Origin: a virus
Direction: 5' to 3' (one strand)
DNA: 39,568 nt
IMG/VR virus record: IMGVR_UViG_3300009551_000080
Location: 1 to 39,568 of that record
Positions within the stretch are counted from its first letter, which is position 1. Every line of letters starts with the position of its first letter. This document shows, piece after piece, positions 4,977 to 29,748 of the stretch. The translations under genes and the position numbers were made by a program. The notes below the pieces were generated by a model. The model searched no databases. It was given only the letters and a program-made list of their open reading frames with translations, and was not told the DNA's origin.

Positions 4977-5013
4977 AAAATAATTAATATCATCACTACT
5001 TGAGGGCGTGATC

Positions 5014-7086
5014 ATGGCACAACGTAATGCACCACAGGCTGAGACACTATCTGGGTCGCCCCAGCCTAACTTCATCGGATACGCGACAGCTCCTATTAAA
5101 TCTAAAAGAGCACCTACAGCCGCAGATACAGGTTTTCCACTCGGTCAAATTTGGGTAGATAAAACATCTGGAGATGTTTACATCCTTTCCCAAGTTGCTG
5201 CGGGAGTGGCTACATGGAACCTTGCAGGAGCAGGTTCTGGAGGCCCATTAAACACTCTTTCAGATACTGCATCTACTGTGATCAATCCAGTAGCAGGTGA
5301 TATTCAAATTATTGGAACAGCCAATCAGGTTTCTTCAACGGCAGGTGTCGGCACTTTGACTCTAGCCACACCAGCAACATTTATTGCTCCAGGGAGCATC
5401 GCCTCAACAACATCAATTCAAGCAGGAACCACTTTAACCTCCGCAGGAGCTACTACTCTCGCTACAACAGGCGCATCTGTCAATACTTTTGGTAACGCGA
5501 CAGGAGCCACCTCTGTGGGAATTACAGCGGGTTCTGGAGGAATAGCTCTTACATCTACTAATTCTGCGATTGCCTTAGAGACTGGAACCGGTGCCATGAA
5601 CATCTCAACAGATGCAACGGCTAACGCAGTCAATGTAGGTACAGGGGCAGGTGCAAAAGCGGTAACCATCGGATCTACAAACACGACATCTGCACTTACA
5701 CTTCAATCTGGTTCAGGTGGCATTAGTTACAATACAGGTAACGGAGCGATCACAATCAATTCCGGAACAGGTACGATCGGAATTTCCACTGATGCAACCA
5801 CTACCACTGTCAACTTGGCCACGGGTGCTGGTGCTAAAACTGTTACCCTAGGATCGACTAATACAACATCCTCAACTGCAATTGCATCTGGATCAGGGGC
5901 TTTAACCCTCACTTCCACAAACGGAGCTATGACTTTAGCCTCTGGAACTGGAACTATAGGTATCTCAGCAGATGCCGCTGCAACGACTCTAAATATCGGT
6001 ACGGGAGCAGGTGTAAAAACTGTAACTTTAGGATCTACAAACACAACTTCTCCTACAACTGTTCAGTCCGGATCAGGTGCTCTAAACATTACCTCTACAA
6101 ACGGGGCTATGACCTTAGCATCCGGTACAGGTACAGTGGGTATCTCTGCTGATGCAGCTACTACTACAGTGAATGTGGGAACAGGAGCTGGCGTAAAGAC
6201 AGTAACCGTAGGTTCAACAAATACAACATCCCCTACAACAATCCAATCCGGTTCTGGAGCTTTGAATGTCACCTCGACAAACGGAGCTTTGACCATCAAT
6301 TCCGGAACTGGAGCCTTGGGAATTTCTACCGATGCGGCAGCGACTACGGTTTCTTTTGCAACAGGTGCTGCTGTCAAGGGAGTAACATTAGGCTCTACTA
6401 ACACAACATCAGCTACGACAGTTCAATCAGGATCTGGAGCGCTTAACATCACTTCGACAAACGGTGCGATGTCCCTGGCTTCTGGAACAGGAGCTTTAAA
6501 CATTTCTAATGACGCAGCTGCAACTACAGTTAGAGTAGGTGCCGGAGCTGCTGTCAAAAACGTGACATTGGGTTCTACAAACACCACCTCAGCTACAACC
6601 ATCAACTCAGGATCTGGAAACATCACGATGGTAGGTAACGTGCTCAAGAGCACTAATCCTGCCTTCCTTCTTTCCTATGCCGCTACTGCCAATAACGTCA
6701 CAGGTGATGGCACCGTCTATACCCTGGGTACAGGAGCTACATTTACAAAGATCTTCGATAGAGGAACGAATGCCACAACCTCCGGAGTATTTACTGCTCC
6801 TGTTACAGGGATCTACGATCTGCGCTCTTCTGTGTATCTAACCGGGGCTACAATTGCGACAACTTACATTCTTAAGATTGTAACTACAGCTAGAACGTAT
6901 GAAACAACCTTTATAAAGGCAGCTGGATCTCAAGATGAATCCATCTCGATCAGCGCTCTTTGCGACATGACAGCTACAGACACTGCAACAGTGACTATCG
7001 CTGTTAACGGGGAAGCCGGAGCCACAGTTGATGTACTTGGTGGAGCAACCATCACTACATTCTTCTGCGGGTCTCTAATCGCCTAA
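5014..7086 (+). CDS. Tail fibre with six 60-residue repeats and a C1q-like tip
   Basis: This 690-residue fibre has three parts. The N-terminal segment (to about 75) ends in LGQIWVDKTSGDVYILSQ, a motif at the capsid-proximal end of many phage fibres. The shaft (about 191-543) is six near-identical 60-residue units built on GTGxxxISxDAAxTTVNxGTG and TLGSTNTTS. The C-terminal 120 residues contain GVFTAPVTGIYDLRSSVYL, closely resembling the C1q/TNF-like trimer signature. The tip and its PAFL...NVTGDGTVYT lead-in recur in the gene at 7948, so the two fibres share a receptor-binding fold. The ATG at 5014 has GAGG eight bases upstream, so the GTG at 5008 is rejected. The role is host receptor binding, inferred from architecture. 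Confidence 0.8.
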   Translation: MAQRNAPQAETLSGSPQPNFIGYATAPIKSKRAPTAADTGFPLGQIWVDKTSGDVYILSQVAAGVATWNLAGAGSGGPLNTLSDTASTVINPVAGDIQIIGTANQVSSTAGVGTLTLATPATFIAPGSIASTTSIQAGTTLTSAGATTLATTGASVNTFGNATGATSVGITAGSGGIALTSTNSAIALETGTGAMNISTDATANAVNVGTGAGAKAVTIGSTNTTSALTLQSGSGGISYNTGNGAITINSGTGTIGISTDATTTTVNLATGAGAKTVTLGSTNTTSSTAIASGSGALTLTSTNGAMTLASGTGTIGISADAAATTLNIGTGAGVKTVTLGSTNTTSPTTVQSGSGALNITSTNGAMTLASGTGTVGISADAATTTVNVGTGAGVKTVTVGSTNTTSPTTIQSGSGALNVTSTNGALTINSGTGALGISTDAAATTVSFATGAAVKGVTLGSTNTTSATTVQSGSGALNITSTNGAMSLASGTGALNISNDAAATTVRVGAGAAVKNVTLGSTNTTSATTINSGSGNITMVGNVLKSTNPAFLLSYAATANNVTGDGTVYTLGTGATFTKIFDRGTNATTSGVFTAPVTGIYDLRSSVYLTGATIATTYILKIVTTARTYETTFIKAAGSQDESISISALCDMTATDTATVTIAVNGEAGATVDVLGGATITTFFCGSLIA
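5584..6642 (+). repeat. Six tandem 180-bp coding repeats in the fibre shaft
   Basis: Six in-frame 60-codon units begin at about 5584, 5764, 5944, 6124, 6304 and 6484, the last somewhat shortened. Protein identity is high while synonymous positions differ, so the units are not very recent copies. Confidence 0.9.
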
Positions 7087-12778: not shown

Positions 12779-13194
12779 GGTAAAAAAAGCTCCGAGTAAC
12801 TATTTTTCTGTGTAGTAACAGAAATTCCAAACTTTTTCTTCCACTCACCCGAAGCGTTCCTATCATCTCTTGCCCCCAAAACTTCGCAATATCTAAACAC
12901 CCCAGTCACAGAACCCCTAAATTCGGGCCAGGATTGACTGTAGGTATGGGGGGAGCTATACACATACTCCTCACCTGCCATTAATCGATTGTAGCTCAAA
13001 TAAAGGCTATCTGAGCCGATTGTGAATCTGAGATTAGACTTATGACCTTTAATTTTGAGCTCCCAAAAGTCTTTTAGCTTAACAGCATCCGACTTGTTGC
13101 GCTCGAAGTCAGGGTGTTGCTTTTTGCGTTCTTCTACTTCTTCGTTCTCATCATCTGAAAAACTTTTCCTTTTAAACTGCTTTAAACCCCCCAT
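12775..13194 (-). CDS. Hypothetical protein downstream of the replication initiator
   Basis: This 139-residue protein has a highly charged N-terminus (residues 5-30, Lys/Glu/Asp). A more ordered part follows with KLKDFWELKIKGHKSNLRF and SQSWPEFRGSVTGVFRYCE. No family was recognised. Its ATG lies 13 bases inside the end of the upstream initiator gene with GGTGG upstream, so it is translationally coupled and probably serves replication, for example as a partner or loader. This is inference from position only. Confidence 0.4.
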   Translation of the reverse strand: MGGLKQFKRKSFSDDENEEVEERKKQHPDFERNKSDAVKLKDFWELKIKGHKSNLRFTIGSDSLYLSYNRLMAGEEYVYSSPHTYSQSWPEFRGSVTGVFRYCEVLGARDDRNASGEWKKKFGISVTTQKNSYSELFLP

Positions 13195-14153
13195 GAGCTA
13201 CCACCCATCAAAGCATCAGCCTTAGGACCGAAGGTCCCGTCAAATGCTTCCCTAAAAGCTTTTGGATGCATGGAATTGGAAAGCTCTTTGCAGCTTTCAC
13301 ATTCGTAAACATAGTCCTGGTAGATTGATAAACTGCGGAGCTTCCAATCTTTCTTCCTTTGACGAGCATACTCGATATTGGTTATGGCATTGGAATCCGG
13401 AGGAGATTTCTTTTCTCTTAAAGCGTGGATCAAAAATCCCATCAGGTTTTCAATTTCGAACTCTGGATCTTCTAAGCAATAAGCTACGTAGGCCTCAGCA
13501 TTTCTTACCTCTTCGGCTGACAACTCTCTTGCTAGCTTATCGATCATCCTTGGGTGTATAAACTTTTCTTCATCGTCAACTTCAATTTTTATTTCTCTTA
13601 AGGCTTTCTTAGATTCTTCAAAATATTTTTTTGAAATTTCAATGCCATTGCCACCCGGCCTTGGCCGGGCTTCCTCCCCCCCAGAGGGGGGTAGGGGGGA
13701 TTTGTCTTTGGTATTGGTATTTATACACACAGAAGGGATTGGGGGATTAGGGGGATTAGTACTATCTATATTTAGTAGTGCCGGTTCTGTCGAGCTCGAC
13801 TTTGCCGAGCCTGGATTTGCCAAGTACGGTACTATTTTATTTAAATCATCTAAATTTTTCTTTGTTTCGAAGACGACTATCTCACTTCTAGAGAATTTGC
13901 CATTTTCTTTTTTCTGGTACCGATATGCATAACCATTATCAATTAATTCGTTTAAAAGATTCCAAGTTTTATCTTTTCCAATCGAGCAAGATTTGCAAAT
14001 CTCTGTGGTGTTAAATGTCCAATCATCTGGACGTGACATCAGCCTAGCCCATAGCCCAATAGCATCAAGAGATAGATTAGAATCCCAAAGAGATGTTTTG
14101 TTTAAGATAACGTAGGGATTTTCTTTGTCGTGGAAAGTGCGGACGATTGCCAT
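13182..14153 (-). CDS. Replication initiation protein with N-terminal winged helix (O/DnaD-like)
   Basis: In this 323-residue protein, residues about 25-90 (SLDAIGLWARLMSRPDDWTF, then an HTH around CSIGKDKTWNLLNELIDNG) form the winged-helix domain common to phage and plasmid replication initiators. A flexible Pro/Ser/Gly-rich linker (about 125-165) leads to a helical C-terminal region (about 175-260) comparable to DnaD-like domains. A CESC motif follows near the C-terminus. It starts at the ATG at 14153 with GAGG four bases upstream and heads a two-gene unit. It probably binds the phage origin and recruits host helicase. Its leader overlaps the structured element at 14173-14303. Confidence 0.65.
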   Translation of the reverse strand: MAIVRTFHDKENPYVILNKTSLWDSNLSLDAIGLWARLMSRPDDWTFNTTEICKSCSIGKDKTWNLLNELIDNGYAYRYQKKENGKFSRSEIVVFETKKNLDDLNKIVPYLANPGSAKSSSTEPALLNIDSTNPPNPPIPSVCINTNTKDKSPLPPSGGEEARPRPGGNGIEISKKYFEESKKALREIKIEVDDEEKFIHPRMIDKLARELSAEEVRNAEAYVAYCLEDPEFEIENLMGFLIHALREKKSPPDSNAITNIEYARQRKKDWKLRSLSIYQDYVYECESCKELSNSMHPKAFREAFDGTFGPKADALMGGSSWGV

Positions 14154-14172
14154 AGAGCCTCATAGAGTTAGG

Positions 14173-14303
14173 CCCCGTGGTACCAGAGGTTCAGAAGATT
14201 ATACTTTTCATTTTACTGTTCGAAAAGTTATAACGAGTGTTAAATTCACTCCGTTCCTAAGCAAAAAGAACGTGTTATTCTGAACCCCGTCTTGTCCACG
14301 GGG
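14173..14303. promoter_or_regulatory. Multi-stem structured RNA region (antiterminator/terminator switch or antisense RNA)
   Basis: Four nested stems can form at once: CCCCGTGG 14173-14180 with CCACGGGG 14296-14303; GGTTCAGAA 14188-14196 with TTCTGAACC 14278-14286; ACTTTTC 14203-14209 with GAAAAGT 14222-14228 (three more pairs past one bulge); and AACGAGTG 14232-14239 with CACTCCGTT 14247-14255 (one bulge). The two outer stems use the same bases as the + strand terminator at 14283-14305, so the two folds exclude each other. It is antisense to the initiator leader. Whether it acts in the + RNA, the - RNA or as DNA is unknown. Confidence 0.55.
14198..14203 (-). promoter_or_regulatory. Putative -10 box for the replication-initiator gene
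   Basis: A perfect TATAAT on the - strand lies about 45 bases before the ATG at 14153. The -35 (TTTCGA at 16-base spacing) is weak. An overlapping + strand TATACT (14200-14205) could drive an approximately 100-nt RNA ending at the terminator. Confidence 0.4.
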
Positions 14304-14315
14304 TTTCTTTTTTTT
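14283..14315 (+). terminator. Rho-independent terminator (+ strand)
   Basis: AACCCCGT (14283-14290), a seven-base loop and ACGGGGTT (14298-14305) are followed by a run of T with one C to 14315. The T run exists only for + strand transcription. The nearest + strand gene ends 1.5 kb upstream, so it more likely ends a local RNA than the fibre operon. Confidence 0.8.
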
Positions 14316-14381
14316 ATGACGACATCCTAACCGTCACTAAACTTTTGATTCCAGCGAAAAAATTCTCCACTCTATAGAAAT

Positions 14382-14410
14382 AAAAAACCCGATACCATTA
14401 CAGCATCGGG
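14382..14410 (-). terminator. Rho-independent terminator after the ssDNA-binding gene
   Basis: On the - strand, CCCGATGC and GTATCGGG form an 8-bp stem (one G-U) around a seven-base loop, followed by six T and a T-rich tail. It sits about 40 bases after the stop at 14450 and separates this gene from the initiator unit. Confidence 0.8.
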
Positions 14411-14449
14411 CCCACAATACACAAAGGATCCATATGAAAAACAACATAA

Positions 14450-15190
14450 CTATGCAGACTTTTCTTTATTATTTCCTAGCCATTTTTCATAAGCAGCAGC
14501 AAATTCTTTAGGTCTTCCCAGCCACACTTCGACAGCTTCATCGATCGGTTTAGAGATCTTAGTTTCGCAAAACTCAAGGTATTCAATCACCCTTTCTGGT
14601 TCGGCAACGACGATGGAATCAGTGAGGATCTTAGCGAGCTGATCAATAGACGGCACAGAATGGGTTTTATATTCTTCAGGTTCGTCTAAATCTCTCCAAG
14701 GGTCTCCGGAGTCGTATAACGCTTCCAAGCGAACTGGCGCGTCTTTCAGAGCCTTTTTTATCTCTTCATTCATAGGTTTAGGAGGACAAGGAGTAAGCGT
14801 ATACCGGGAGTTTATTCCAGAGCCTTCCTTTAAAACTTTAATGTCATATTGAGTGCTGTCACCCCAATCCTCTTGAGTAATGATGGCTTCAAGTTGGCTT
14901 ATCACGCCGCTTTGCGCCACTTCAAGAATGAATAGATCCTTTATTTCATAGTCCCATATGTAAAGAGACCAAAATTCTTTATGAGGTTTTTCTGGATCTA
15001 TACTTCTTTTAGGCTCATCTTCATACCTGAATCTTATGGGTTTATTGTCTTTCCAGTCCTGATAACCTCCGATTGGAGTAATAACGATTCTGAATCTATT
15101 TTCTCCTGTCTTAAACTCAGACATTTTCTTGTAATTTTTTTTCTTAGCCCTGCGGTGTTCAATACCTTTTGGCAAATTTGGATTTGTCAT
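14450..15190 (-). CDS. Phage single-stranded DNA-binding protein
   Basis: This 246-residue protein has a basic N-terminus (KGIEHRRAKKKNYKKM). The central OB-fold-like region runs about 25-135: FKTGENRFRIVITPIGGYQDW, HKEFWSLYIWDYE, KDLFILEVAQSGVISQLEAI, then WGDSTQYDIKVLKEGSG and YTLTP. That succession is characteristic of gp32-type phage SSBs. The C-terminal end is Lys/Glu rich rather than purely acidic. It probably coats ssDNA in replication and recombination with the nearby nuclease and RusA. It has its own putative promoter and terminator. Confidence 0.7.
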   Translation of the reverse strand: MTNPNLPKGIEHRRAKKKNYKKMSEFKTGENRFRIVITPIGGYQDWKDNKPIRFRYEDEPKRSIDPEKPHKEFWSLYIWDYEIKDLFILEVAQSGVISQLEAIITQEDWGDSTQYDIKVLKEGSGINSRYTLTPCPPKPMNEEIKKALKDAPVRLEALYDSGDPWRDLDEPEEYKTHSVPSIDQLAKILTDSIVVAEPERVIEYLEFCETKISKPIDEAVEVWLGRPKEFAAAYEKWLGNNKEKSA

Positions 15191-15221: not shown

Positions 15222-15249
15222 TTCATATAAGTCTCTGACCCCTTATCAA
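15222..15249 (-). promoter_or_regulatory. Putative promoter for the ssDNA-binding gene
   Basis: On the - strand TTGATA (15249-15244), a 16-base spacer and TATGAA (15227-15222) precede the start at 15190. The -35 box lies within the stem of the + strand terminator at 15239-15261. Confidence 0.45.
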
Positions 15250-15270
15250 CGTGGTAAGGGGCCTTTTTTT
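15239..15270 (+). terminator. Rho-independent terminator (+ strand) inside the - strand early block
   Basis: CCCCTTATCA and TGGTAAGGGG (15239-15261) make a 10-bp stem with one G-U pair and a three-base loop, followed by CC and seven T. No + strand gene precedes it locally. Confidence 0.75.
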
Positions 15271-16213: not shown

Positions 16214-16248
16214 CCCCGTAGCTATTCGAGTAGCTACAGGGATTTTTT
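16214..16248 (+). terminator. Rho-independent terminator (+ strand) in the early block
   Basis: CCCCGTAGCTA and TAGCTACAGGG (16214-16241) form a stem with one C-A mismatch and a six-base loop, followed by A and six T. It is antisense to the leader of the - strand gene starting at 16178, and no + strand gene precedes it. Confidence 0.7.
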
Positions 16249-16888: not shown

Positions 16889-16918
16889 TTGACAATAACA
16901 TTCAATGTACTCTATAGT
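16889..16918 (+). promoter_or_regulatory. Rightward promoter of the divergent pair
   Basis: Perfect TTGACA (16889-16894), an 18-base spacer and TATAGT (16913-16918) stand 40 bases before the HTH gene start at 16959. Confidence 0.7.
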
Positions 16919-16921
16919 CAA
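16892..16921 (-). promoter_or_regulatory. Leftward promoter of the divergent pair, overlapping the rightward one
   Basis: On the - strand TTGACT (16921-16916), an 18-base spacer and TATTGT (16897-16892) point at the nuclease gene. Each -35 overlaps the other promoter's -10, inside a 9-bp inverted repeat with one mismatch (TTGACAATA / TATAGTCAA). Confidence 0.5.
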
Positions 16922-18034: not shown

Positions 18035-18281
18035 CCTGTTTGTCGCGCCATTCTTTTGCTTTCACCTTTTCTTCCTCGATCTGCTTGTGCATTGCTGAGA
18101 GAGATGGAATATAGAGATGATTTTCATAATCGTTGAAAAGATCTCTAAAAATACAGAGAGCCCGGGAAGCATCCTTACCCTCGAAATGAGATTCGATCTC
18201 CCCTTCAAACGCCTCAGCAAGCGCCTGCTCACGTTCTAATGCTTCTTTTAATGCTATTTTCAAATTTTGTATTGTGCTCAT
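18021..18281 (-). CDS. 86-residue helical hypothetical protein
   Basis: ATG at 18281 has GGGGAG eight bases upstream and overlaps the preceding stop as ATGA, so an upstream ATG at 18311 is rejected. The product is almost entirely helical and acidic (KIALKEALEREQALAEAFEGE). It is the last of a chain of coupled small genes. Function is unknown. Confidence 0.45.
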   Translation of the reverse strand: MSTIQNLKIALKEALEREQALAEAFEGEIESHFEGKDASRALCIFRDLFNDYENHLYIPSLSAMHKQIEEEKVKAKEWRDKQATSS

Positions 18282-18388
18282 TGATCCGTCTCCCCGGGAA
18301 TGATGCCCCATCCATCTACGCTAACCATCTCTTCGCTATATCGACTCATCTCTTTGAGCCATTCGAACACTTTCTTTAATGTTTTCAT
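18278..18388 (-). CDS. 36-residue hypothetical protein
   Basis: ATG at 18388 overlaps the preceding gene's TGA, and its own TGA overlaps the next ATG. Both ends are therefore set by ATGA coupling. The product begins MKTLKKVFEWLKEMSRYSEE. Its family is unknown. Confidence 0.4.
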   Translation of the reverse strand: MKTLKKVFEWLKEMSRYSEEMVSVDGWGIIPGETDQ

Positions 18389-18555
18389 TCATTTGCCTCT
18401 CTTTCTTGTTGCGTTAGTTTACTTAGAAAAAATCCCCTCATAAGAGACAAGCCCCTCATAAAATGTATTCTTTCACTTGGATCAAAATACTGAGAAAACT
18501 CCTCACACAGCATTTCTAAAATGATCTCGGATTCCTCTTCAATCGTATAACTCAT
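18385..18555 (-). CDS. 56-residue hypothetical protein
   Basis: ATG at 18555 overlaps the stop of the upstream gene. The product has an acidic helical N-terminus (YTIEEESEIILEMLCEEF) and then MRGLSLMRGFFL. It is in the same coupled chain. Function is unknown. Confidence 0.45.
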   Translation of the reverse strand: MSYTIEEESEIILEMLCEEFSQYFDPSERIHFMRGLSLMRGFFLSKLTQQEREANE

Positions 18556-18710
18556 ATAAAGCCCTTAGGCAATGCGCCTGTTGTCAAATATTGAAAAGCC
18601 TCTTCTAAATCCATGGACATAATCACAGCGAAATTTACTTCTGGGCGCGGGTCCGCGAGACATTTGTCGGCCACAGCATCCCATATGATGGCGTTTTGTT
18701 CGTTACTCAT
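18552..18710 (-). CDS. 52-residue hypothetical protein
   Basis: ATG at 18710 with GGAGG seven bases upstream is preferred over an ATG at 18734. The site lies inside the end of the preceding gene. The product includes AVADKCLADPRPEVNFAVI. No family was recognised. Confidence 0.45.
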   Translation of the reverse strand: MSNEQNAIIWDAVADKCLADPRPEVNFAVIMSMDLEEAFQYLTTGALPKGFI

Positions 18711-18918
18711 TAATAAACCTCCAAATGCTGTCAAAATCTACCTGCGCGACGTCGAGCCCATCGCCCTTTAAATCAGCGGCTATAACGAAAGCCTTTAAAT
18801 CCGCCCCTGAACTGGTGGATCGTGCCATTTTATAGAGAGGCTCGTCGTTACATAGCCATAAATTTGCGTTCCAAGTGTGCCAATTGGGCCAGCCCTGGTA
18901 TGGTGTTTCTTTGTCCAT
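18703..18918 (-). CDS. DUF7249-like small protein
   Basis: This 71-residue protein starts at an ATG with AAGGA six bases upstream. YQGWPNWHTWNANLWLCNDE matches the conserved (N)xxTWNxxLWLxND signature of a small phage family, which I recall as DUF7249. Function is unknown. It heads the leftward chain of coupled small genes. Confidence 0.55.
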   Translation of the reverse strand: MDKETPYQGWPNWHTWNANLWLCNDEPLYKMARSTSSGADLKAFVIAADLKGDGLDVAQVDFDSIWRFINE

Positions 18919-18961
18919 TTGAATTCCTTCTTTATGCCAATTTATCATTCTTATAGTTGGT

Positions 18962-18990
18962 ATAATAACACGCAAATAACATTACGACAA
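18962..18990 (-). promoter_or_regulatory. Putative promoter of the leftward small-gene chain
   Basis: On the - strand TTGTCG (18990-18985), a 17-base spacer and TATTAT (18967-18962) lie about 45 bases before the ATG at 18918. Confidence 0.5.
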
Positions 18991-19057
18991 GATAGAGAAT
19001 TTCTTTTAATTAATTAAAATTACGCCTATATAAAGTTGGATTAAAAGAAGGCTAGGA

Positions 19058-19648
19058 ATGACTGCAAAAGGCGGAAGGAACTACATACCTAAGCGTCTCA
19101 AGCCCAACTTCGGACGGCCCAAGAAGCCCCCCATCCCGAAGCCTACGGGCAGGCCATCCAAGTGGAATGAAGGGCTTATCGATCAAGCCAAAACTTACGC
19201 GCAATTTGGCTTTTCAGACGTCGATATAGCTCAAAAACTACACATTTCCGTCGCCACTTATTATGAATGGCAAAAGACTTTTCCTAGGTTTTCAGAGGCA
19301 ATTCGTGAAGGAAGATTGCAATCCATTGGCGGCCTGAGCTTTAAGGCCGTTACAAAGGCTCTAGAAGGCGGAATAAAGAAAAAGACGAGACGAACCAAGG
19401 TTATCAACCCCGACGGCAGCCTACGCGAAACTAGAGAGGAAATTGAGGAACAGGAAGTATGGCCTTGTAAAGACACTGCGCTCAAGCACCTTTCAGTCAC
19501 AGACCCCCATTACAAAGGTATACAGGAAAAACTTGAGATGCCTAGCTGGGTGAAAGACCTCAAGCCATCTATTGCCACTAAGGCAGAAAACCTGCGACTT
19601 GAAGATGCCGAACAGGTAACAATCACACTACCTAAGGACGAGGAATGA
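19058..19648 (+). CDS. terS: Terminase small subunit
   Basis: This 196-residue protein has a basic, proline-rich N-terminus. An HTH follows (about 33-85, GRPSKWNEGLIDQAKTYAQF, then IAQKLHISVATYYEWQKTFPRFSEAI) of the kind found in phage small terminases that recognise pac or cos DNA. After it come an oligomerisation-type helical region with KAVTKALEGG and a charged tail. The terminase large subunit lies 0.7 kb downstream on the same strand. Tandem AT-rich DNA upstream carries a TATATA box. The family assignment rests on the HTH and the context. Confidence 0.75.
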   Translation: MTAKGGRNYIPKRLKPNFGRPKKPPIPKPTGRPSKWNEGLIDQAKTYAQFGFSDVDIAQKLHISVATYYEWQKTFPRFSEAIREGRLQSIGGLSFKAVTKALEGGIKKKTRRTKVINPDGSLRETREEIEEQEVWPCKDTALKHLSVTDPHYKGIQEKLEMPSWVKDLKPSIATKAENLRLEDAEQVTITLPKDEE

Positions 19649-19914
19649 TGAATTTCTTCGACGCAGTAAATCAGATTAATCGTGAGGCCTCGGTTCACAT
19701 GCCCGACGACGTTGCAGCATGGGGCGCCAAGTTCGAAGGGCTTGCCCAAAGAAAAGAGATTGTAGGAACGCTACAGACGCAGACACACGCCGAATATGTC
19801 AAAGAATCCAAAATCCGCCCCAGAGGCACCATATGGTATGATATGAAGGGGCGCAGGCACTACGCAGCGGATATTGCTAACGGCAATCAAACATGGTTAC
19901 CCATCGATGAGTGA
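19645..19914 (+). CDS. 89-residue hypothetical protein between terminase subunits
   Basis: It starts at ATG 19645, overlapping the terS stop as ATGATG with GAGGA just upstream (an ATG at 19648 is equivalent). The C-terminal part reads RPRGTIWYDMKGRRHYAADI, a small beta-like segment. No family was recognised. Position suggests a packaging-linked or accessory role. Confidence 0.45.
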   Translation: MMNFFDAVNQINREASVHMPDDVAAWGAKFEGLAQRKEIVGTLQTQTHAEYVKESKIRPRGTIWYDMKGRRHYAADIANGNQTWLPIDE

Positions 19915-19921
19915 GGTCAAT

Positions 19922-20140
19922 GTGGAATGGATTAACATCAAAGATAGGCTGCCAGAAACAGATGGGCGCTTGATAGTCTACGGCAGCGCATCTTGCGGCT
20001 CATGCTGCCCTGTTCCTGGGGTTAGAGAGGCTAGGCACTTTTCTCGACATGGGGAATCTACATTCGAATTCGGGGAATATGATTGCCCTATCGATGTTAC
20101 ACATTGGATGCCCCTTCCACCACGACCAGGGAATGAATGA
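19922..20140 (+). CDS. DUF551-like protein, copy 1
   Basis: The GTG at 19922 with GAGG five bases upstream gives a 72-residue protein beginning (M)EWINIKDRLPETDGRLIVY and ending VTHWMPLPPRP. DUF551 proteins are short phage and prophage proteins with this Trp-rich N-terminus and the HWMPLP(x)PP end. Their function is unknown. A Cys-rich loop (ASCGSCCPVPG) might bind metal. Its TGA overlaps the start of a second, shorter copy. Confidence 0.7.
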   Translation: MEWINIKDRLPETDGRLIVYGSASCGSCCPVPGVREARHFSRHGESTFEFGEYDCPIDVTHWMPLPPRPGNE

Positions 20141-20340
20141 ACTGGATTAGCGTCGAGGAAGAAAATAGACCGCCCGTTTTTTTAACCTGCGACTTGTTCT
20201 ACCCGCACATCGTGTGTTTTGGCGTGGATTACGACGATGGCGATGGGCCCATTATAATTAACGCATCCATCACTGAAATCCCGTGTGACTATTGCGTTAC
20301 TCATTGGATGCCACTCCCCAAACCCCCGGCAGATAATTGA
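20137..20340 (+). CDS. DUF551-like protein, copy 2
   Basis: This 67-residue protein starts in an ATGA overlap. It shares MNWISVEEENRPPV at the N-terminus and CVTHWMPLPKPP at the C-terminus with the copy just upstream, but its middle is different, pointing to an old tandem duplication. Its stop overlaps the TTG start of terL. Confidence 0.65.
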   Translation: MNWISVEEENRPPVFLTCDLFYPHIVCFGVDYDDGDGPIIINASITEIPCDYCVTHWMPLPKPPADN

Positions 20341-21641
20341 ATATATCCCTTACTCGAAAACAAATCCTATCAATCGACGAGTCGACGGCCTTCATTAACA
20401 TTTGGGAAGGTTCTATCCGTAGCGGCAAAACCATAGCCGCAATCGTCGCTTTTGGTCTCTTCGCCATCACATGTCCACCGGGAGAGTTAATGATTATAGG
20501 ACCCACCTCCGAGAGTATCGAGCGCAACGTCATCAAGCCTTTCCTTGAGGTTTGGGGACGCATAGCAACATGGCACTCTGGCAAGCGCATATTAAACGTG
20601 GGCTCGAAAGAAGTATGGGTTGTGGGCGCCCCCGATAACTCCGCCTACTCAAAGATCCAAGGAGCCACTTTAATTGGTGCGTATTGCGATGAGCTCAGTT
20701 TGCTTCCTCATTCCTTTTACGAAGTGCTAGTAGGCCGTTTAAGCCTATCTGGAGCGCGTCTCTTTGCAACCACCAACCCTGACAGCCCACATCACTGGCT
20801 GAAGGCCAAGCTTGACCAGGCGGATGGCAAGTACCTCAAGAGCTTTCACTTCATACTACCGGACAACCCGCACCTTCCAGAAGATTACATCGCCAACATC
20901 AAACGGTCTTACACTGGCCTGTATTATAAAAGATATGTCGAGGGAAAATGGGTTCAGGCCGAGGGGGCGATTTATGACTTCTTTGACGAAAAGGCGCACT
21001 GTATTGACTTTCCTCCTACGCAGACGGCCGAATATATCGTTGGCGTTGACTATGGAACGACGAACCCGTGCTCTTTTGTCTTGGTGGGACACAATAAGGA
21101 ACGCTACCCTAATACATGGGTTGAGAAGGAGTATTACTATGACTCGCGCAAGAAGGGGCGTCAAAAGACGGACGCTGACTATGCGAAAGATTACGCGGAT
21201 TTCATCAAAGGCTATACTGTTCGTTCAACTTACATCGACCCCAGTGCAGCGAGCTTTAAGCTCGAACTTACTCGGTCTGGCGTCTCTAATCTCCATGACG
21301 CTGAGAATGAGGTTTTGGATGGGATCAGACAAGTTGCTGCTCTCATTAATCAGGGAAACTTGCGGATCTGTAGAACCTGCCCAAACCTTATCAAAGAGTT
21401 CCAGTCGTACGCATGGGACGACAAGTCATTTAAGAGCGGTAAGGACTGCCCTATTAAAGAAAATGACCACGCGTTAGATGCTCTGCGTTACGCTATCTAT
21501 ACCCACTTCTTTGGAAAGAGCGGCCAGCGAATGACGCCGCAGGATCTAGATCGTCACTACCTCGAGGCCATGGGCATTCAACCCAATCTGCCGTCATTCT
21601 TTCAGCAGCCTGACATGCGCGGTGGTGGCGGGTACTTCTAA
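20337..21641 (+). CDS. terL: Terminase large subunit
   Basis: This 434-residue protein packs DNA into the prohead as ATPase and nuclease. Motifs are Walker A GSIRSGKT (25-32), Walker B LIGAYCDE (112-119, Asp-118/Glu-119), the coupling motif ATTN (144-147) and nuclease acidic residues at GVDYG (Asp-238), YIDPSA (Asp-301) and ENDHALDALRYA (Asp-377, Asp-381). The domain order is the usual ATPase-then-RNase H fold. The start is TTG at 20337 in a TTGA overlap without a strong Shine-Dalgarno. The next ATG would cut off Walker A, so TTG is kept. Family resemblance is to Terminase_3/6-type phage enzymes. Confidence 0.92.
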   Translation: MNISLTRKQILSIDESTAFINIWEGSIRSGKTIAAIVAFGLFAITCPPGELMIIGPTSESIERNVIKPFLEVWGRIATWHSGKRILNVGSKEVWVVGAPDNSAYSKIQGATLIGAYCDELSLLPHSFYEVLVGRLSLSGARLFATTNPDSPHHWLKAKLDQADGKYLKSFHFILPDNPHLPEDYIANIKRSYTGLYYKRYVEGKWVQAEGAIYDFFDEKAHCIDFPPTQTAEYIVGVDYGTTNPCSFVLVGHNKERYPNTWVEKEYYYDSRKKGRQKTDADYAKDYADFIKGYTVRSTYIDPSAASFKLELTRSGVSNLHDAENEVLDGIRQVAALINQGNLRICRTCPNLIKEFQSYAWDDKSFKSGKDCPIKENDHALDALRYAIYTHFFGKSGQRMTPQDLDRHYLEAMGIQPNLPSFFQQPDMRGGGGYF

Positions 21642-21919
21642 TCCGTGTCCCCTCCGGGCGAATACTTCCCCCTTTTAACCCTGCAGCTGGGGTCTTTGGG
21701 CATCTTGACGAATTTTCCTTCTTTGAGCTCATATCCCCAATACCCCATAGGAACAGCGCCTCCCGTGATTTGATGAATCCTTCGGGCAACTGCGACGCCG
21801 GGGCATATAGTTCTATTTCGATAGTGATAAAGGGTTGTATAGCTCACGCCGATCATCTTAGACATATGATCGTTGCTGATTTCATTCGCCGTCATGTAAT
21901 CATCAAGAAGGTTCCTCAT
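21638..21919 (-). CDS. Cro/CI-like HTH protein
   Basis: In this 93-residue protein, residues about 8-55 (EISNDHMSKMIGVSYTTLYHYRN, then GVAVARRIHQITGG) form a helix-turn-helix of the lambda-repressor-like type. It is the last gene of the leftward accessory operon. Its stop overlaps the terL stop from the opposite direction and its ATG overlaps the preceding TGA (ATGA). It might autoregulate the island. Confidence 0.6.
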   Translation of the reverse strand: MRNLLDDYMTANEISNDHMSKMIGVSYTTLYHYRNRTICPGVAVARRIHQITGGAVPMGYWGYELKEGKFVKMPKDPSCRVKRGKYSPGGDTD

Positions 21920-22077
21920 TCATCTTCCTTCTTTGTGAGGCTATTAATAAGCGTCCCGAGCTCTATTAATTTGATGGCACAAGGAGTGCATATGGGTCTG
22001 GGCACCTCTGGTTTGTACCTTGGAAGCTCAAACGTACAGGGACCTATTTTATAACAGTGGATGCATTCTTTATTCAT
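21916..22077 (-). CDS. Small zinc-ribbon-like protein
   Basis: This 53-residue protein has ECIHC near the N-terminus, a lone Cys and then ICTPC, suggesting one zinc site. The ATG at 22077 is set by an ATGA overlap with the 33-residue membrane peptide gene. Upstream in-frame ATGs would run through that gene. Function is unknown. Confidence 0.5.
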   Translation of the reverse strand: MNKECIHCYKIGPCTFELPRYKPEVPRPICTPCAIKLIELGTLINSLTKKEDE

Positions 22078-22175
22078 TTCCTTCTGCTCCACCATATGGA
22101 AAAAACAATCCCTACGACGCATATGATGACTGCCAAAGCGGACATGGATGTAAAATCTGAAGCTCTATAATGCAT
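22074..22175 (-). CDS. 33-residue membrane peptide
   Basis: ATG at 22175 has AGGGA six bases upstream and begins two bases after the previous stop. The product is a short polar N-terminus, one membrane span (SALAVIICVVGIVFSIWW) and an SRRK tail, the shape of many small phage inner-membrane peptides. Its TGA overlaps the next ATG. Good signals on both sides make it likely to be real. Its role is unknown. Confidence 0.5.
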   Translation of the reverse strand: MHYRASDFTSMSALAVIICVVGIVFSIWWSRRK

Positions 22176-22177
22176 TA

Positions 22178-22684
22178 TTAATCCCTATTTGGGCCCGGAG
22201 GACACGTTCCAAGACCTGGTGTGGGACCCCAATCCCCCCATCCGCCTTTAAAACCCATATCTCTCAGGGTTTTGTCAACGAACTTTTCTGTTGCAGCGGC
22301 TCCATATTCTACGGCTGACCCGGGGTCCCCTGCGAATAAACTTCCGACGGCTAGCGCAGAGTCCTTCACTACATCAAACCCCTGCTTAGTCGAAGGATGT
22401 TCCATAAATCTGTCCCATGCAGTGCTTTCATTGTTTCCGGCTAATATCGCCCCATCGCCATAGTTTGCTGCGAGTGTACTCCATTGCCACCTTTCGTATG
22501 TTGCAGGATCGGTTAGATCAGGTAGGCTTCTAACTACGAGCATAGGGATCTCTGGAAGGTGCGCAGCGAATTCTTGGACTACGCCTGTACCCTGTTCAAT
22601 AAAATGACCAGCGCCTCTCACAACGTGGCCAAGCATTTCAGGGTTTAGGCCTCCAAGTCTCTCTCCGACTACAATGTGACTCAT
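22178..22684 (-). CDS. 168-residue hypothetical protein
   Basis: AAGGAA stands five bases before the ATG. Gly- and Ala-rich helical segments (NPEMLGHVVRGAGHFIEQGTG) precede a Trp/Tyr-containing middle (ATYERWQWSTLAANYGDGAI). The C-terminus is Gly/Pro-rich (GWGDWGPTPGLGTCPPGP). No family or catalytic motif was recognised. It heads the last four-gene coupled part of the island. An effector or cell-surface role is possible but unsupported. Confidence 0.4.
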   Translation of the reverse strand: MSHIVVGERLGGLNPEMLGHVVRGAGHFIEQGTGVVQEFAAHLPEIPMLVVRSLPDLTDPATYERWQWSTLAANYGDGAILAGNNESTAWDRFMEHPSTKQGFDVVKDSALAVGSLFAGDPGSAVEYGAAATEKFVDKTLRDMGFKGGWGDWGPTPGLGTCPPGPNRD

Positions 22685-22708
22685 GATGTTTCCTTGTGTG
22701 TTTGTGTT

Positions 22709-22891
22709 TCAATACTTTTCAAAGTGTATGCCTATGGGTGCATCTTTTGGCGCTTTCGGCCTTCTAGTTTTTTTACAGCGGGCGCACTGATACATTGGGA
22801 TTGGGATTTCAATTTTCTCATCACCCAGCACCCCGTGTATTATTAAGGTCTTCCTGTGGACCCATTCATGGCCCAAAAAGAAGCATCTCAT
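22709..22891 (-). CDS. Small Cys/His protein (DUF1660-like)
   Basis: This 60-residue protein places CFFLGHEW at the N-terminus and YQCARCKKTRR later. This is the arrangement of short prophage proteins (CxxxGHxW ... CxxC) that probably bind zinc. The start overlaps the HNH gene's stop as ATGA. Function is unknown. Confidence 0.5.
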   Translation of the reverse strand: MRCFFLGHEWVHRKTLIIHGVLGDEKIEIPIPMYQCARCKKTRRPKAPKDAPIGIHFEKY

Positions 22892-23421
22892 AATATAATC
22901 CTAATTGGCTTATTAACCGGCTCATAGTTCTCGTTGACGTGGGAGCAGTTGACGAAGGTTGTTTTATTTATCACGTTACAAATAGTTTGCTTGCAAACTC
23001 CGTATTCAGAGGCTAATTCAAGAGATGATTTTGATGGATATTTCGATCTGATTTCTGTCGCTTGTTCTTCCGTTAATTTGGAGGTTCCTACTGAAGAGCC
23101 TTTAACATTCCTACGCTTTCTAACCATGTCCAAGGTATTCTCTGAGATGGTTCCTATAGACAAATGATGGATATTACAACAGGCTCTGTTATCACATGAG
23201 TGCATAACAACTAATCCTTGGAAATCTCCCGGGTTCACAAGACCATACAAAAGTCTATGAGCTATATATGTTTTCCGCTTGATCGCGTAGTAACCATACC
23301 CATCTTTGTCCTTTCCTAAGGGCCACGGCTTACAGCCTGTATCTGAACTCTTAATGGAGTCGATTATCTCTAAAAAGGCCGTCTCGCTATTACGCCATTT
23401 GCTTCCCTTTTTACCGCTCAT
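22888..23421 (-). CDS. HNH homing-type endonuclease
   Basis: This 177-residue protein carries the HNH core: YIAHRLLYGLVNPGDFQGL, then VMHSCDNRACCNIHHLSIGT (His-74, Asn-78, His-85/86 with Cys ligands). A NUMOD-like linker and a C-terminal HTH follow (about 114-160, KLTEEQATEIRSKYPSKSSL, then YGVCKQTICNVINKTTF). The architecture is that of free-standing phage homing endonucleases. The ATG at 23421 is chosen (GGGGGA six bases upstream). The longer in-frame extension to 23556 would overlap two other frames. It starts exactly where a metallophosphoesterase remnant breaks off. Confidence 0.85.
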   Translation of the reverse strand: MSGKKGSKWRNSETAFLEIIDSIKSSDTGCKPWPLGKDKDGYGYYAIKRKTYIAHRLLYGLVNPGDFQGLVVMHSCDNRACCNIHHLSIGTISENTLDMVRKRRNVKGSSVGTSKLTEEQATEIRSKYPSKSSLELASEYGVCKQTICNVINKTTFVNCSHVNENYEPVNKPIRIIL

Positions 23422-23507
23422 ATCAAATCCCCCGCCACAATCAGAAGGTGGCCTCCCTCTAGCTTGGGGTAATGACCATGGAGGTCGCTGATACAGTCGA
23501 TTATCAC
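23418..23507 (-). pseudogene. N-terminal stub of a metallophosphoesterase, cut off by the HNH gene
   Basis: A GTG at 23507, overlapping the preceding TGA, opens 29 codons reading IIDCISDLHGHYPKLEGG, then HLLIVAGDLI and stop. This matches the first two metal motifs (D-x-H and GD) of calcineurin-like phosphoesterases of the short MPPED/YfcE-like type. The GNH and later histidine motifs are absent and were not found downstream. Its TGA overlaps the HNH ATG. Confidence 0.65.
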
Positions 23508-23698
23508 AAAGCACTCCAATGACTGACGTAAGCTTTTGAACCGCATTTATTCGCATCCTCTGTAATCATCATGAACATTCTCATATATGGGTCGTAATCG
23601 GCAATTGTTTGCAGCAGGTCGCCACTTTCTTCGTGAATTAGCACTTCACACTTGGTTTCAGCCTCTGGGTAACTATTAAGAACGCTGTACCAAATCAT
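23504..23698 (-). CDS. 64-residue hypothetical protein
   Basis: ATG at 23698 overlaps the upstream stop as TAATG with GGAAG nearby. The product starts MIWYSVLNSYPEAETKCEVL and contains ESGDLLQTIADYDPYMRMFM. Its own TGA overlaps the GTG of the metallophosphoesterase stub. No family was recognised. Confidence 0.45.
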   Translation of the reverse strand: MIWYSVLNSYPEAETKCEVLIHEESGDLLQTIADYDPYMRMFMMITEDANKCGSKAYVSHWSAL

Positions 23699-24000
23699 TA
23701 TTCTTCCCATCCTCCACCAAGCCAACTTAGAACGTCTAGCTCTCTGTTCCTTTGCCAATGTTGTCTTTGTTCTTCGGTGCATTCAATTTTACACCAGACA
23801 CTAATAACCTCATTAAGTGGGTCATACGGTCTATCGCTCGGAGTTGTAATAGTCAAATCAAAGACTCTTTGCCCTTTGGTGCCCATTTGATTGGCCCAAT
23901 CGAAGGCAAGCTTCATGCAGCGCAGAAAAGCCTCATCATTGTAGGTTTGAATAACCTGCTCGTTCATCGTTAATATTTTGTGTGGTATCCAGGTTTTCAT
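23698..24000 (-). CDS. 100-residue hypothetical protein
   Basis: ATG at 24000 has AAAGGG six bases upstream. The N-terminal half (NEQVIQTYNDEAFLRCMKLA) is helical and the middle is beta-like (QRVFDLTITTPSDRP). The C-terminus has several Trp. No family was recognised. It leads the coupled set that ends in the HNH gene. Confidence 0.4.
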   Translation of the reverse strand: MKTWIPHKILTMNEQVIQTYNDEAFLRCMKLAFDWANQMGTKGQRVFDLTITTPSDRPYDPLNEVISVWCKIECTEEQRQHWQRNRELDVLSWLGGGWEE

Positions 24001-24078
24001 TGGCATCCCTTTAAATTTGCCGTCTTTAGGATTCGAACCCGATAGCTAGCGTTGGTATTGCAACATCGAGTTGAGGGG

Positions 24079-24339
24079 TCATTGCATTTTTCCCGTTCTG
24101 AATCCTTCTCCACGCATCGATCGAGCGCATTCATCAAGGGCCTTTTTAAGATTCTCAATAGATCGCTCTTCGGCTTTGTTTTTCGTAAATATGTAAATTA
24201 CGATGCTAACGCAAGCAGAGACCGCAGCATCATCTTTCACGCCGTTTAGCTCGAATGCTTCGTGAATTATGGTCGTGGCATTTTCCGTTTCTTTAAGAAG
24301 TTGCCCAAGTCTGCTTCTATCAATACGGTCATTTGGCAT
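24079..24339 (-). CDS. Paralogous small helical protein A
   Basis: This 86-residue protein has the core HEAFELNGVKDDAAVSACVS followed by SIENLKKALDECARSM. The same layout of helix, DD.AA..A and a terminal KxAL helix recurs in the genes at 24364 and 24864, so the three look like diverged duplicates. No membership of a named family was recognised. They surround the Tad2-like gene. Confidence 0.45.
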   Translation of the reverse strand: MPNDRIDRSRLGQLLKETENATTIIHEAFELNGVKDDAAVSACVSIVIYIFTKNKAEERSIENLKKALDECARSMRGEGFRTGKMQ

Positions 24340-24363
24340 ATAAGTAGCCCCTTGAATCTTTTC

Positions 24364-24570
24364 TCAATGATTACTTTTCCAGTTTTTTTCAGAATCCTCA
24401 AGCGCCTTAAGGATAGCTTTCCTGAAGGTCTCATAAGAACGCTTTTTAGCTATATTTATACCGACAATCAAGTTAAACATGGCGTCAATAGCTATGGATC
24501 CATCGATGTTATTAACATCAAAAACTTCTGCCAAAAGCTCATAGCATCGCGCAATCTTCTGTGTTTTCAT
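24364..24570 (-). CDS. Paralogous small helical protein B
   Basis: This 68-residue protein reads YELLAEVFDVNNIDGSIAID, then ETFRKAILKALEDSEKNWK. It aligns by pattern with paralogues A and C. The ATG at 24570 is chosen, just past the preceding stop. The Shine-Dalgarno is weak (GCGGAA), and a GTG at 24585 is possible. Confidence 0.4.
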   Translation of the reverse strand: MKTQKIARCYELLAEVFDVNNIDGSIAIDAMFNLIVGINIAKKRSYETFRKAILKALEDSEKNWKSNH

Positions 24571-24574
24571 GTTA

Positions 24575-24874
24575 TTATTCCGCACAAGATGACTTCTGTA
24601 AACCCTTTGCTATTTCAGCGGCTTCGCTTTCTGTCATATCTCTTGGGCGGGTATAAACGATCCAATCTTCTGCAAAGATGTCCTCTTCGCTGAAATGCTT
24701 CGTTCCAAAAAAAGCGCCACAAAATTCACCTTTATCAAATTCTTCGACCGTCAAGTCGTCAATAGCATACCCTTCAAAATTGGGTGATCGCATGACGTAG
24801 TAAACTTTGTCTTGGGATATTCGCTTAATGGCGTGGCCCTGTTGTAGCTTAAATAACGCTTCTCTAATGTCCAA
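24575..24874 (-). CDS. Tad2/DUF2829-like protein (candidate anti-Thoeris)
   Basis: This 99-residue protein has the N-terminal IREALFKLQQGHAIKRIS and a C-terminal block EEDIFAEDWIVY. These correspond to the two best conserved parts of DUF2829 (EAL..L..GK...R and .DLLA.DW.vv). Some DUF2829 members (Tad2) bind the signalling molecule of Thoeris defence. The middle is divergent, and the usual Trp after the N-terminal basic residue is missing. Start is TTG with GGAG seven bases upstream, inside the end of the preceding gene. Membership is likely; anti-defence activity is inference. Confidence 0.5.
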   Translation of the reverse strand: MDIREALFKLQQGHAIKRISQDKVYYVMRSPNFEGYAIDDLTVEEFDKGEFCGAFFGTKHFSEEDIFAEDWIVYTRPRDMTESEAAEIAKGLQKSSCAE

Positions 24875-25121
24875 GTCTTTGCTCCATTGACCGTCTCAGA
24901 ACGGAGACAGTCTTTTTAATTTGATCAAATACCCCATCCATTTGTAGATCGGTAATATGATAACACACAAAACACTGGCATAAGAGAGAAACCGCGACAG
25001 TAGAAACGGCGGCCGGATCATCTAAGTCTTTATGTAGAGAATTGAAGATGTCATGGCTCTGGGACATCCTTTTTCTTGCTCTTTGCTCGTCGTCTTTTGT
25101 CATTTTAGGGTTACTATCCAT
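24864..25121 (-). CDS. Paralogous small helical protein C
   Basis: This 85-residue protein reads NSLHKDLDDPAAVSTVAVSL and later QIKKTVSVLRRSMEQR, patterned like proteins A and B. It overlaps the Tad2-like gene by 11 bases and starts five bases after the SPFH gene's stop, so the three are in one coupled operon. Function is unknown. Confidence 0.4.
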   Translation of the reverse strand: MDSNPKMTKDDEQRARKRMSQSHDIFNSLHKDLDDPAAVSTVAVSLLCQCFVCYHITDLQMDGVFDQIKKTVSVLRRSMEQRLGH

Positions 25122-25125
25122 TCCT

Positions 25126-26004
25126 TTATCTCTTTTTTTCAGTTAGAAATAGATCCATGGGGATGATGGCACCGGTCCCTGTTACTATAGGCAGCTTTCC
25201 ATCCCAGTTTTGGATCGCCTGCCACATGATCAGCTCCTGCGTGATAGATGAAGACAACATCCTGTTAGCTTCTCCTTCGGCCTTAGCCTTGATCAATGCT
25301 GATTGCGCTAATCCTTGTGCCTTGGCAATTTCTTTCTCGGCCTGGGCCTTGGCTTCTCTGAGCTCATTTTCCCTTTGCTGGGCTCGCTGTGTAGCTTCAA
25401 TCTTGCTGTTAAGCGCCGCGACCACCTGACTTGGGAAGTGTAGCGTTCCAATAAGGTAAAGGCGATCAACGATGATTCCCAAGGATTCCATGTCCCTTCT
25501 AAGCAATCCCTGCACAGCGTCAACAAATCCTTCTTTTTCGGTTCCATACAGCTCCTCAACGCTCATTTTGCTAGCCACTTTGTTAATGGCATCCCTAGCG
25601 TAATTCCTAATGAATAGGTCGGTGATCTCATCGATACCTCTCCGATATTTACAGAACAAAGTATAAATCTTATCAGCCTGAAGGTGATAAGATATGCCAA
25701 TGTCTGCATTGACATTCAAACCTTCTCCAGTTTGAAAGGTAAAGCTCCTCGTCCCGTCCCAAATATGGTTCTGCTCAAATACTGGGAACGTGAACACCTT
25801 CTTCCAAGGCGCTATCCAATGCATGCCTACCGTTAGCTCTTGAGGAGCAGCCCCTTTTTCCTCTCCAAATAGATTAACAACCACTCCGACGTACCCGGGG
25901 TTGACCATTTTGAAGAAAAACATCCATGCAAAGAGCAAAATAATGCCCGATGTTATTGCATAAAATTTGATAAGGTAGGATGTCTTGGAGTTAATTTTAG
26001 TCAT
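25126..26004 (-). CDS. SPFH/Band 7 (prohibitin-like) membrane protein
   Basis: This 292-residue protein has one N-terminal membrane span (about 12-32). The SPFH domain spans about 35-210: VNPGYVGVVVNLFGEEKG, QTGEGLNVNADIGISYHL, AINKVASKMSVEELYGTEK and DMESLGIIVDRLYLIG. A long Glu/Ala/Lys coiled coil follows (210-255, with REAKAQAEKEIAKAQGLAQ). Such proteins form ring- or cage-like membrane assemblies and often control membrane proteases. In a phage it may alter host membrane proteolysis, lysis timing or superinfection. It is the first gene of the island operon. Confidence 0.85.
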   Translation of the reverse strand: MTKINSKTSYLIKFYAITSGIILLFAWMFFFKMVNPGYVGVVVNLFGEEKGAAPQELTVGMHWIAPWKKVFTFPVFEQNHIWDGTRSFTFQTGEGLNVNADIGISYHLQADKIYTLFCKYRRGIDEITDLFIRNYARDAINKVASKMSVEELYGTEKEGFVDAVQGLLRRDMESLGIIVDRLYLIGTLHFPSQVVAALNSKIEATQRAQQRENELREAKAQAEKEIAKAQGLAQSALIKAKAEGEANRMLSSSITQELIMWQAIQNWDGKLPIVTGTGAIIPMDLFLTEKKR

Positions 26005-26084
26005 ATTCTCTCTATAGTTATTTCATACAGCAAATTTCTAGACATTACCCTTTTTCTTTCTTTTGCCCAATAGCCAATCTTTTT

Positions 26085-26113
26085 TTGATCTGAATTGTGT
26101 AGTAGTTTATTGT
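26085..26113 (+). promoter_or_regulatory. Possible promoter of the portal operon
   Basis: TTGATC (26085-26090), a 17-base spacer and TATTGT (26108-26113) precede the portal ATG at 26141. Each box matches 4 of 6 consensus bases. Confidence 0.3.
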
Positions 26114-26140
26114 AAAGGAAATATTTTACTACGGCAGAAT

Positions 26141-28168: not shown

Positions 28169-28232
28169 TGTTTTGCAAAAATTAGTAGTAATGTAAAGTT
28201 AATTTTAAAATCAAGCCAACAAGGAGATCTTT

Positions 28233-28451
28233 ATGGCTAAGAAAGCAATGATGCATGGTAATTCTGAAAAAGAAGGAAAAAGAGTTGGAGCTGGCAAGTT
28301 TGCTGGTATGCCGACAGAAGTTCAGATGCGCGAATATCCAAAATCGCATGAATATGGTCCTACAGATCTCGATGATACCATGACAGAGATCGACAGCTGC
28401 AATAGAGCTGCTCACGTGACAGCCAGAAAGCATATGTCCAATCAACACTAA
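28233..28451 (+). CDS. 72-residue small protein with FAGMP motif
   Basis: AAGGAG stands six bases before the ATG. The product is polar with VGAGKFAGMPTEVQMREYP, and a similar GSFANMPSKPIMKPF block occurs in the next gene. The two are probably related. It is first in a row of small basic genes between portal and scaffold, so a virion or assembly role is suspected. The family is unknown. Confidence 0.45.
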   Translation: MAKKAMMHGNSEKEGKRVGAGKFAGMPTEVQMREYPKSHEYGPTDLDDTMTEIDSCNRAAHVTARKHMSNQH

Positions 28452-28460
28452 GAGGCACCC

Positions 28461-29745: not shown

Positions 29746-29748
29746 AAT

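Follow-up and report, generated by a model that had tools for sequence, protein, structure and literature searches.

Introduction

Control of an initiator gene by antisense RNA is a classic plasmid device for setting copy number. In plasmid R1, CopA blocks a leader peptide coupled to repA, and RNAI of ColE1 acts on the replication primer. The staphylococcal plasmid pSK41 encodes an RNAI of about 83 nt that is transcribed counter to rep within its leader, some 100 nt ahead of the translation start. This RNA has been proposed to bring about a hairpin in which the ribosome site is hidden; such RNA control has not been evident in RepA_N plasmids from other genera (PMC5703833). RNAI of pT181 and RNAIII of pIP501 direct an antisense-driven attenuation of rep, with a pairing logic of pre-emptor and anti-RBS (PMC5703833). 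From phages, OOP of lambda is an antisense RNA (PMC12197685), and extrachromosomal mycobacterial prophages have RNA-based origins, at which an RNA initiates replication without Rep (PMC7157519). In the open-licence literature, we found no report of an antisense RNA that controls a phage replication initiator.

In this study, we analysed a 39.6-kb viral record that encodes terminase, portal, head and tail proteins (the window, meaning the whole of this stretch), in which a folded element precedes the gene of a replication initiator (rep). Our findings indicate that the region is probably an antisense-RNA-controlled leader of this gene. The nearest described device is that of pSK41, which has an antisense RNA within the rep leader, as predicted here, and an initiator whose DnaD-like N-terminal fold the phage Rep may share. 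The present leaders differ in that they belong to tailed phages whose Rep matches HTH_36 and not Pfam RepA_N, and the likeness does not extend to any shown nucleotide similarity. A matching plan is known from plasmids, in the form of pSK41 RNAI (PMC5703833), where the original prediction had recognized no matching family. As Pfam RepA_N is unmatched, the phage system is not filed as RepA_N; by analogy it may work like the pSK41-type system while standing outside that family. CopA of R1 and RNAI of ColE1 are likewise short antisense RNAs that set copy number, but the phage leader shows no leader peptide and no primer. The mycobacterial prophages are also phage replicons with a noncoding RNA; here, however, the RNA is proposed to repress Rep.

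A folded element in front of rep

The flagged stretch lies between an ssb-like gene (15190..14450, minus strand) and rep (14153..13182, minus strand), so that, as predicted originally, the element on the plus strand is antisense to the rep leader. The features of the region are as follows; start codons are predicted.

13182..14153, minus strand: rep, replication initiator of 323 aa with an HTH_36/DnaD-like winged-helix N-terminus (PHROGs, Pfam, fold comparison)
14154..14176, minus strand: hairpin GGGGCCU/AGGCUCU in the minimum-energy fold (MFE) of the leader, which takes up the Shine-Dalgarno (SD) sequence GAGG (14158-14161) and abuts the ATG
14154..14317, minus strand: rep mRNA leader (sense), about 164 nt from the predicted start (sense TSS 14317) to the ATG
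14173..14303, minus strand: outer long-range helix, 14296-14303 with 14173-14180, incompatible with both the SD hairpin and the local hairpin
14177..14205, plus strand: candidate antisense promoter, -35 GTGGTA, 17 nt, -10 TATACT, a weak match (score 7.06) with a TSS at about 14212
14186..14288, minus strand: second long-range helix GGGGTTCAGAA/TTCTGAACCTC, 11 bp, which closes the multiloop (p=0.01 vs shuffles)
about 14198-14233, 14235-14251 and 14252-14272, no strand assigned: three inner hairpins, side by side in the multiloop (folding)
14212..14316, plus strand: predicted antisense RNA of about 105 nt, from predicted TSS to T-run end
14282..14316, plus strand: intrinsic terminator of the predicted antisense RNA, hairpin 14282-14306 then T-run, with equivalents in 9/14 homologous leaders
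14324..14353, minus strand: candidate rep promoter, -35 TGGAAT, 18 nt, -10 TAGGAT, a weak match whose position agrees with homologs
14385..14413, minus strand: terminator belonging to the ssb-like gene upstream (15190..14450)

All inverted repeats that had been described for the element were found in place, among them pairs of 8 bp (14173-14180/14296-14303) and 9 bp (14188-14196/14278-14286) and the terminator-forming pair of 8 bp (14283-14290/14298-14305), which is followed by TTTCTTTTTTTT. The outer stems and the terminator hairpin were also rightly called mutually exclusive, with bases common to both folds. The description as four nested repeats stands for the positions but not for a single nested series, as three hairpins lie alongside one another in a multiloop. 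The structure of the leader is confirmed: the MFE of the 153-nt region is -48.7 kcal/mol on the plus strand and -52.3 kcal/mol on the minus strand, with z of -6.1 and -6.5, respectively, and 0/200 shuffles were equally stable. When the whole window was scanned coarsely (1127 segments of 140 nt, 15 shuffles each), the region came out among the more strongly folded stretches, the strongest lying elsewhere. Rfam covariance models gave no family match at gathering or relaxed thresholds, only weak sub-threshold matches, and a search of the element for iterons found none. Despite the cloverleaf-like multiloop, a tRNA or tmRNA identity was rejected, as none was called at the element. Elsewhere in the window, a second Rfam tRNA match that was uncalled by ARAGORN (30216-30282, minus strand) lies near tRNA-Asn (29748-29822).

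Since the ssb-like gene has its own terminator, rep should need its own promoter, to be sought in the 80 bases before the element, where the weak candidate listed above is situated. At the other end of the leader, the SD hairpin is already part of the minimum-energy fold, and forcing the outer helix costs 1.7 kcal/mol relative to the MFE of the full leader. Two G.U pairs of this hairpin, read from the sequence, are possible on the rep-sense strand only. The systems of pT181 and pIP501 resemble the arrangement proposed here in having an antisense RNA in the rep leader and the same pairing logic; there, however, the induced hairpin is a transcription terminator, whereas no T's, and hence no U-run, follow the window hairpin before rep. 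A sense-strand Rho-independent terminator just before rep, as a pT181-type attenuator would have, was found within -220..-60 of the start codon in none of the 15 leaders compared (0/15).

On the plus strand, the candidate antisense promoter has the best score of the region, which at 7.06 is near background (median best 6.7 per 300 nt). Unconvincing alone, it is placed where the promoters of the homologs peak. The RNA predicted to start from it folds at -23.5 kcal/mol, with weak 5′ structure and the terminator hairpin. Two further plus-strand hairpins with T-runs, which resemble the one before rep, lie in the leaders of the minus-strand ssb-like gene (15239-15261) and of a 59-aa ORF (16214-16238); no strong antisense promoter was seen beside either. 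Strong divergent sigma70-like promoters at 16889-16921 (TTGACA-18-TATAGT on the plus strand and TTGACT-18-TATTGT on the minus strand), between an exonuclease and a Cro/C1-like gene, probably mark the early control region.

The initiator protein

Compared with PHROGs, Rep matched phrog_186, a DnaD-like helicase loader (2e-13), and several families named replication initiation protein; compared with Pfam, it matched HTH_36 above the cut-off. The Pfam RepA_N profile matched neither the window Rep nor any of 13 relatives, and HTH_36 was found in 12/14. Structurally, the predicted fold of residues 1-103 was nearest to the DnaB primosome protein (5wtn), RctB domain 1 (5ube) and plasmid initiators (Z 7.3-8.8), the first six rows of the comparison all being replication proteins. 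Residues 15-98 of the model aligned over 80-81 residues with 4pql, 4pt7, 5kbj and 4pta (Z 7.3-8.5, which is middling; rmsd 2.5-4.6), structures that we take to be staphylococcal plasmid Rep proteins, that is, initiators of the pSK41 type. A sequence profile search of the PDB with Rep returned no pSK41 Rep, which was found through fold comparison only. Inside rep, at 13686-13760, three copies of G-rich short direct repeats resembling GGGGGATTA form a possible iteron-type origin.

Relatives and conservation of the plan

DNA similarity of the window to GenBank phages was not found, and single-protein scans (Rep and SSB in viral contigs, Rep in genomes) gave no confirmed relatives. Relatives were reached via the terminase, RusA and exonuclease genes, and in three of the phages obtained (L044, L052 and L054), a rep homolog is immediately preceded by a large folded leader. 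An alignment (A2) of Rep N-termini of this type led to 32 viral loci, among which 14 leaders (L060, L062-L064, L066-L074 and L080) fold strongly and the others mostly do not. The closest relative found (L002), from another metagenome, has a terminase 91% identical to that of the window and matches positions 18148-28795 at about 69-82% DNA identity, with gaps; it is without the rep region and does not reach the element. The pattern GGTTCAGAA-N66..96-TTCTGAACC gave 12 matches in viral contigs, which had unrelated surrounding folds and were judged by eye to be chance. Also set aside were distant Rep homologs without a free leader or without the plan, from IMG/VR phages (L036, L038 and L040), GBSV1, phiEF-1.1, phiC2, PaV-LD, Piscirickettsia, Legionella, Leptospira and Exiguobacterium.

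The leaders of the 14 distantly related rep genes have no alignable sequence in common, and full-length Rep identity to the window is 22-30% (clade members aligned in A3); it is the plan that recurs. It comprises a rep promoter near -160, an antisense hairpin with T-run, an antisense sigma70-like promoter with its transcription start near -80 and long-range helices that reach to just before the ribosome site. The original prediction expected compensatory changes in the stems of related phages, an expectation that can be satisfied only loosely, the leaders of the homologs having diverged too far for column-wise alignment. On a tree of Rep, where we assigned the trait labels according to our work on the leaders, 13/14 members of one clade that includes the window (support 99/95) have the folded, antisense-bearing type, and the trait is strongly clustered (0/500 shuffles as low). 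An antisense promoter and a terminator are also seen in the 14th member (L077), provided that its start codon is placed 39 bases further downstream. What computation shows is thus the structure, the antisense terminator, the recurring positions of the antisense and sense promoters, the long-range helices and the conservation of this plan across the clade. Outside the main clade, the same leader trait occurs in L072, L080, L101 and L102. The rep-like gene at 4995 of L072 (143,778-base contig IMGVR_UViG_3300046526_000553) is preceded by a leader of the same plan, in which the long-range helix measures 19 bp and the SD hairpin has 13 pairs.

Antisense signals and competing explanations

Within -220..-60 of the start codon, an antisense hairpin with T-run was present in 10/15 leaders, as compared to 0.05/15 in dinucleotide shuffles; leaders of other genes on the same contigs had such terminators in 3/162 cases. 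The five without one by the strict criterion are L063, L066, L071, L072 and L074. Scored with an approximate E. coli matrix, which may not suit the host, the sigma70 profile across the 15 leaders has one outstanding peak, for an antisense TSS near -80 (z 8.4, sense strand there z 1.3); the TSS range was picked after the data had been seen, and the profile is reported whole. The best sense promoter peak is at -160 (z 3.6). A plain consensus count agrees with the profile, with 8/16 leaders at the antisense peak vs 0-3 in other bins. Individual antisense promoters scored 10.4-11.5 in L060, L062, L063, L068, L070, L073 and L074 (background 97th percentile 10.6, best per 300 nt), and L064 had none (score 4.9). 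The RNAs predicted from these signals are 49-113 nt long and mostly consist of one or two hairpins and the terminator hairpin.

Long-range helices joining the antisense-covered 5′ part of the leader to the stretch immediately before the ribosome site were longer than in shuffles in 9/15 leaders (p<=0.05; combined p 5e-10), with lengths of 16 bp in L060, 17 bp in L062 and L063 and 19 bp in L072. When the antisense region was covered, the predicted accessibility of the ribosome site fell in 12/15 leaders (mean -0.078, as compared to -0.004 at 70 control gene starts; p=0.003), most clearly in L064, L067, L070 and L071. For the window leader, the same calculation left the predicted state of the ribosome site unchanged (0.24 to 0.23), which at equilibrium shows no switch.

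Some of these results would equally suit a leader that acts purely in cis, a switch in the rep mRNA read by a ligand, by Rep or by another protein, with no antisense RNA at all. The structure is equally stable on the rep-sense strand, the SD hairpin has its sense-only G.U pairs, and the long-range helices recur. Counts of G.U vs A.C are even, at 17 v 18, so that wobble does not pick a strand overall. We nevertheless consider this explanation unlikely, as it leaves the unidirectional antisense terminators (10/15) and the antisense promoter peak (z 8.4) unexplained, and as the homologs share no sequence, unlike a ligand-binding aptamer, and Rfam gave no match for the element.

The plus-strand hairpin could also be a mere terminator against read-through from a convergent late operon, shielding the early genes, with the fold incidental. 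Such a shield would be expected at the point of convergence and not in a leader. The late genes do run towards rep, ending at 12272, and convergent genes lie downstream of rep in several homologs, but L080 and L069 have the terminator even though about 4.5 kb of sequence downstream of rep contains no convergent operon, large or small. With the promoter peak and the long-range helices also left unaccounted for, we regard this reading as quite improbable.

The antisense RNA could instead resemble OOP of lambda, which is transcribed away from the initiator gene: a short RNA that starts beside that gene, is read away from it and acts on another target or through transcription from its promoter. 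The geometry is the same (promoter by the initiator start, transcription away, intrinsic terminator). OOP, however, targets cII and not an initiator leader, whereas here the whole predicted RNA lies inside the rep leader, does not reach the upstream gene and covers a region that helices link to the ribosome site, all of which makes an OOP-like role very unlikely. A DNA-level element, whose inverted repeats serve Rep as a cruciform or single-strand origin, is barely credible: it would suit a position adjoining the initiator gene and repeats that fold on both strands, but there are no iterons, the promoter and terminator signals are fixed in strand and spacing, the SD-accessibility effect would have no place, and the G-rich repeats within rep (13686-13760) are the better origin candidate.

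Proposed control of rep

The antisense-RNA reading that we prefer retains the core of the original prediction, supported by the recurrent antisense terminator, the promoter position and the leader structure in relatives, and departs from it over the outer stems. Most likely, the antisense RNA starts near 14212 and holds the inner hairpins and the terminator but lacks the 5′ arms of both outer stems; these stems form in the leader of the rep mRNA.

From the recurrent plan we infer that the RNA is made, binds its target, blocks translation and has a role in copy number, as follows. A short plus-strand RNA (about 14212-14316) would be transcribed from the mid-leader promoter, terminate at 14282-14316, facing the beginning of the rep mRNA, and have as its complement the 5′ part of the rep leader. 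As long as the rep mRNA is free, the long-range helices would tie that 5′ part to the bases immediately before the ribosome site. Once the antisense RNA occupied the 5′ part, the 3′ sequence CCACGGGGCC would become available for pairing with the Shine-Dalgarno region, and Rep would no longer be translated. Because its level would follow the number of genome copies, the RNA could hold copy number or the timing of replication in check, and related phages could become incompatible through it. For the window itself, the SD-switch step is drawn by analogy from the relatives and would depend only on kinetics or on the gap of 1.7 kcal/mol between the two states.

More tentatively, these leaders may represent a widespread and undescribed class of phage antisense RNAs in front of DnaD-like initiators, with a shared layout and no shared sequence, owing to fast-changing pairing regions that set copy number and the terms of phage-plasmid coexistence or superinfection. 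As the layout alone is conserved, such systems escape Rfam and BLAST.

A possible link to phage-plasmids

The antisense signature across a clade of tailed phages ties phage replication control to plasmid biology and suggests that the phages of this clade may live as phage-plasmids. It also predicts RNA-based incompatibility or superinfection exclusion among them. The window phage may itself be a phage-plasmid, as it has a ParB-like gene (970-1725) and no integrase was found among about 30 window proteins scanned. Rep homologs with a long leader were also found on two bacterial replicons that look like phage-plasmids. One, in Deinococcus psychrotolerans, is a circular plasmid (NZ_CP034188) that encodes a phage tail tape-measure protein and ParA, and on which the leader has a strong antisense promoter (11.9, TSS -71) and is not unusually stable (z -1.2); the other is an 81-kb plasmid of Pseudomonas atacamensis with a terminase, NinX and an annotated integrase-type gene.

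Two tail proteins of the window stand out for other reasons. The tail-region protein encoded at 5008-7086 consists of many GSTNTTS/SGSGALN-like repeats, with more repeat-rich proteins up to 12272, and a large tail-module protein (36505-39084) clearly matches Pfam E1_FCCH (PF16190), a domain that takes its name from ubiquitin-activating enzymes.
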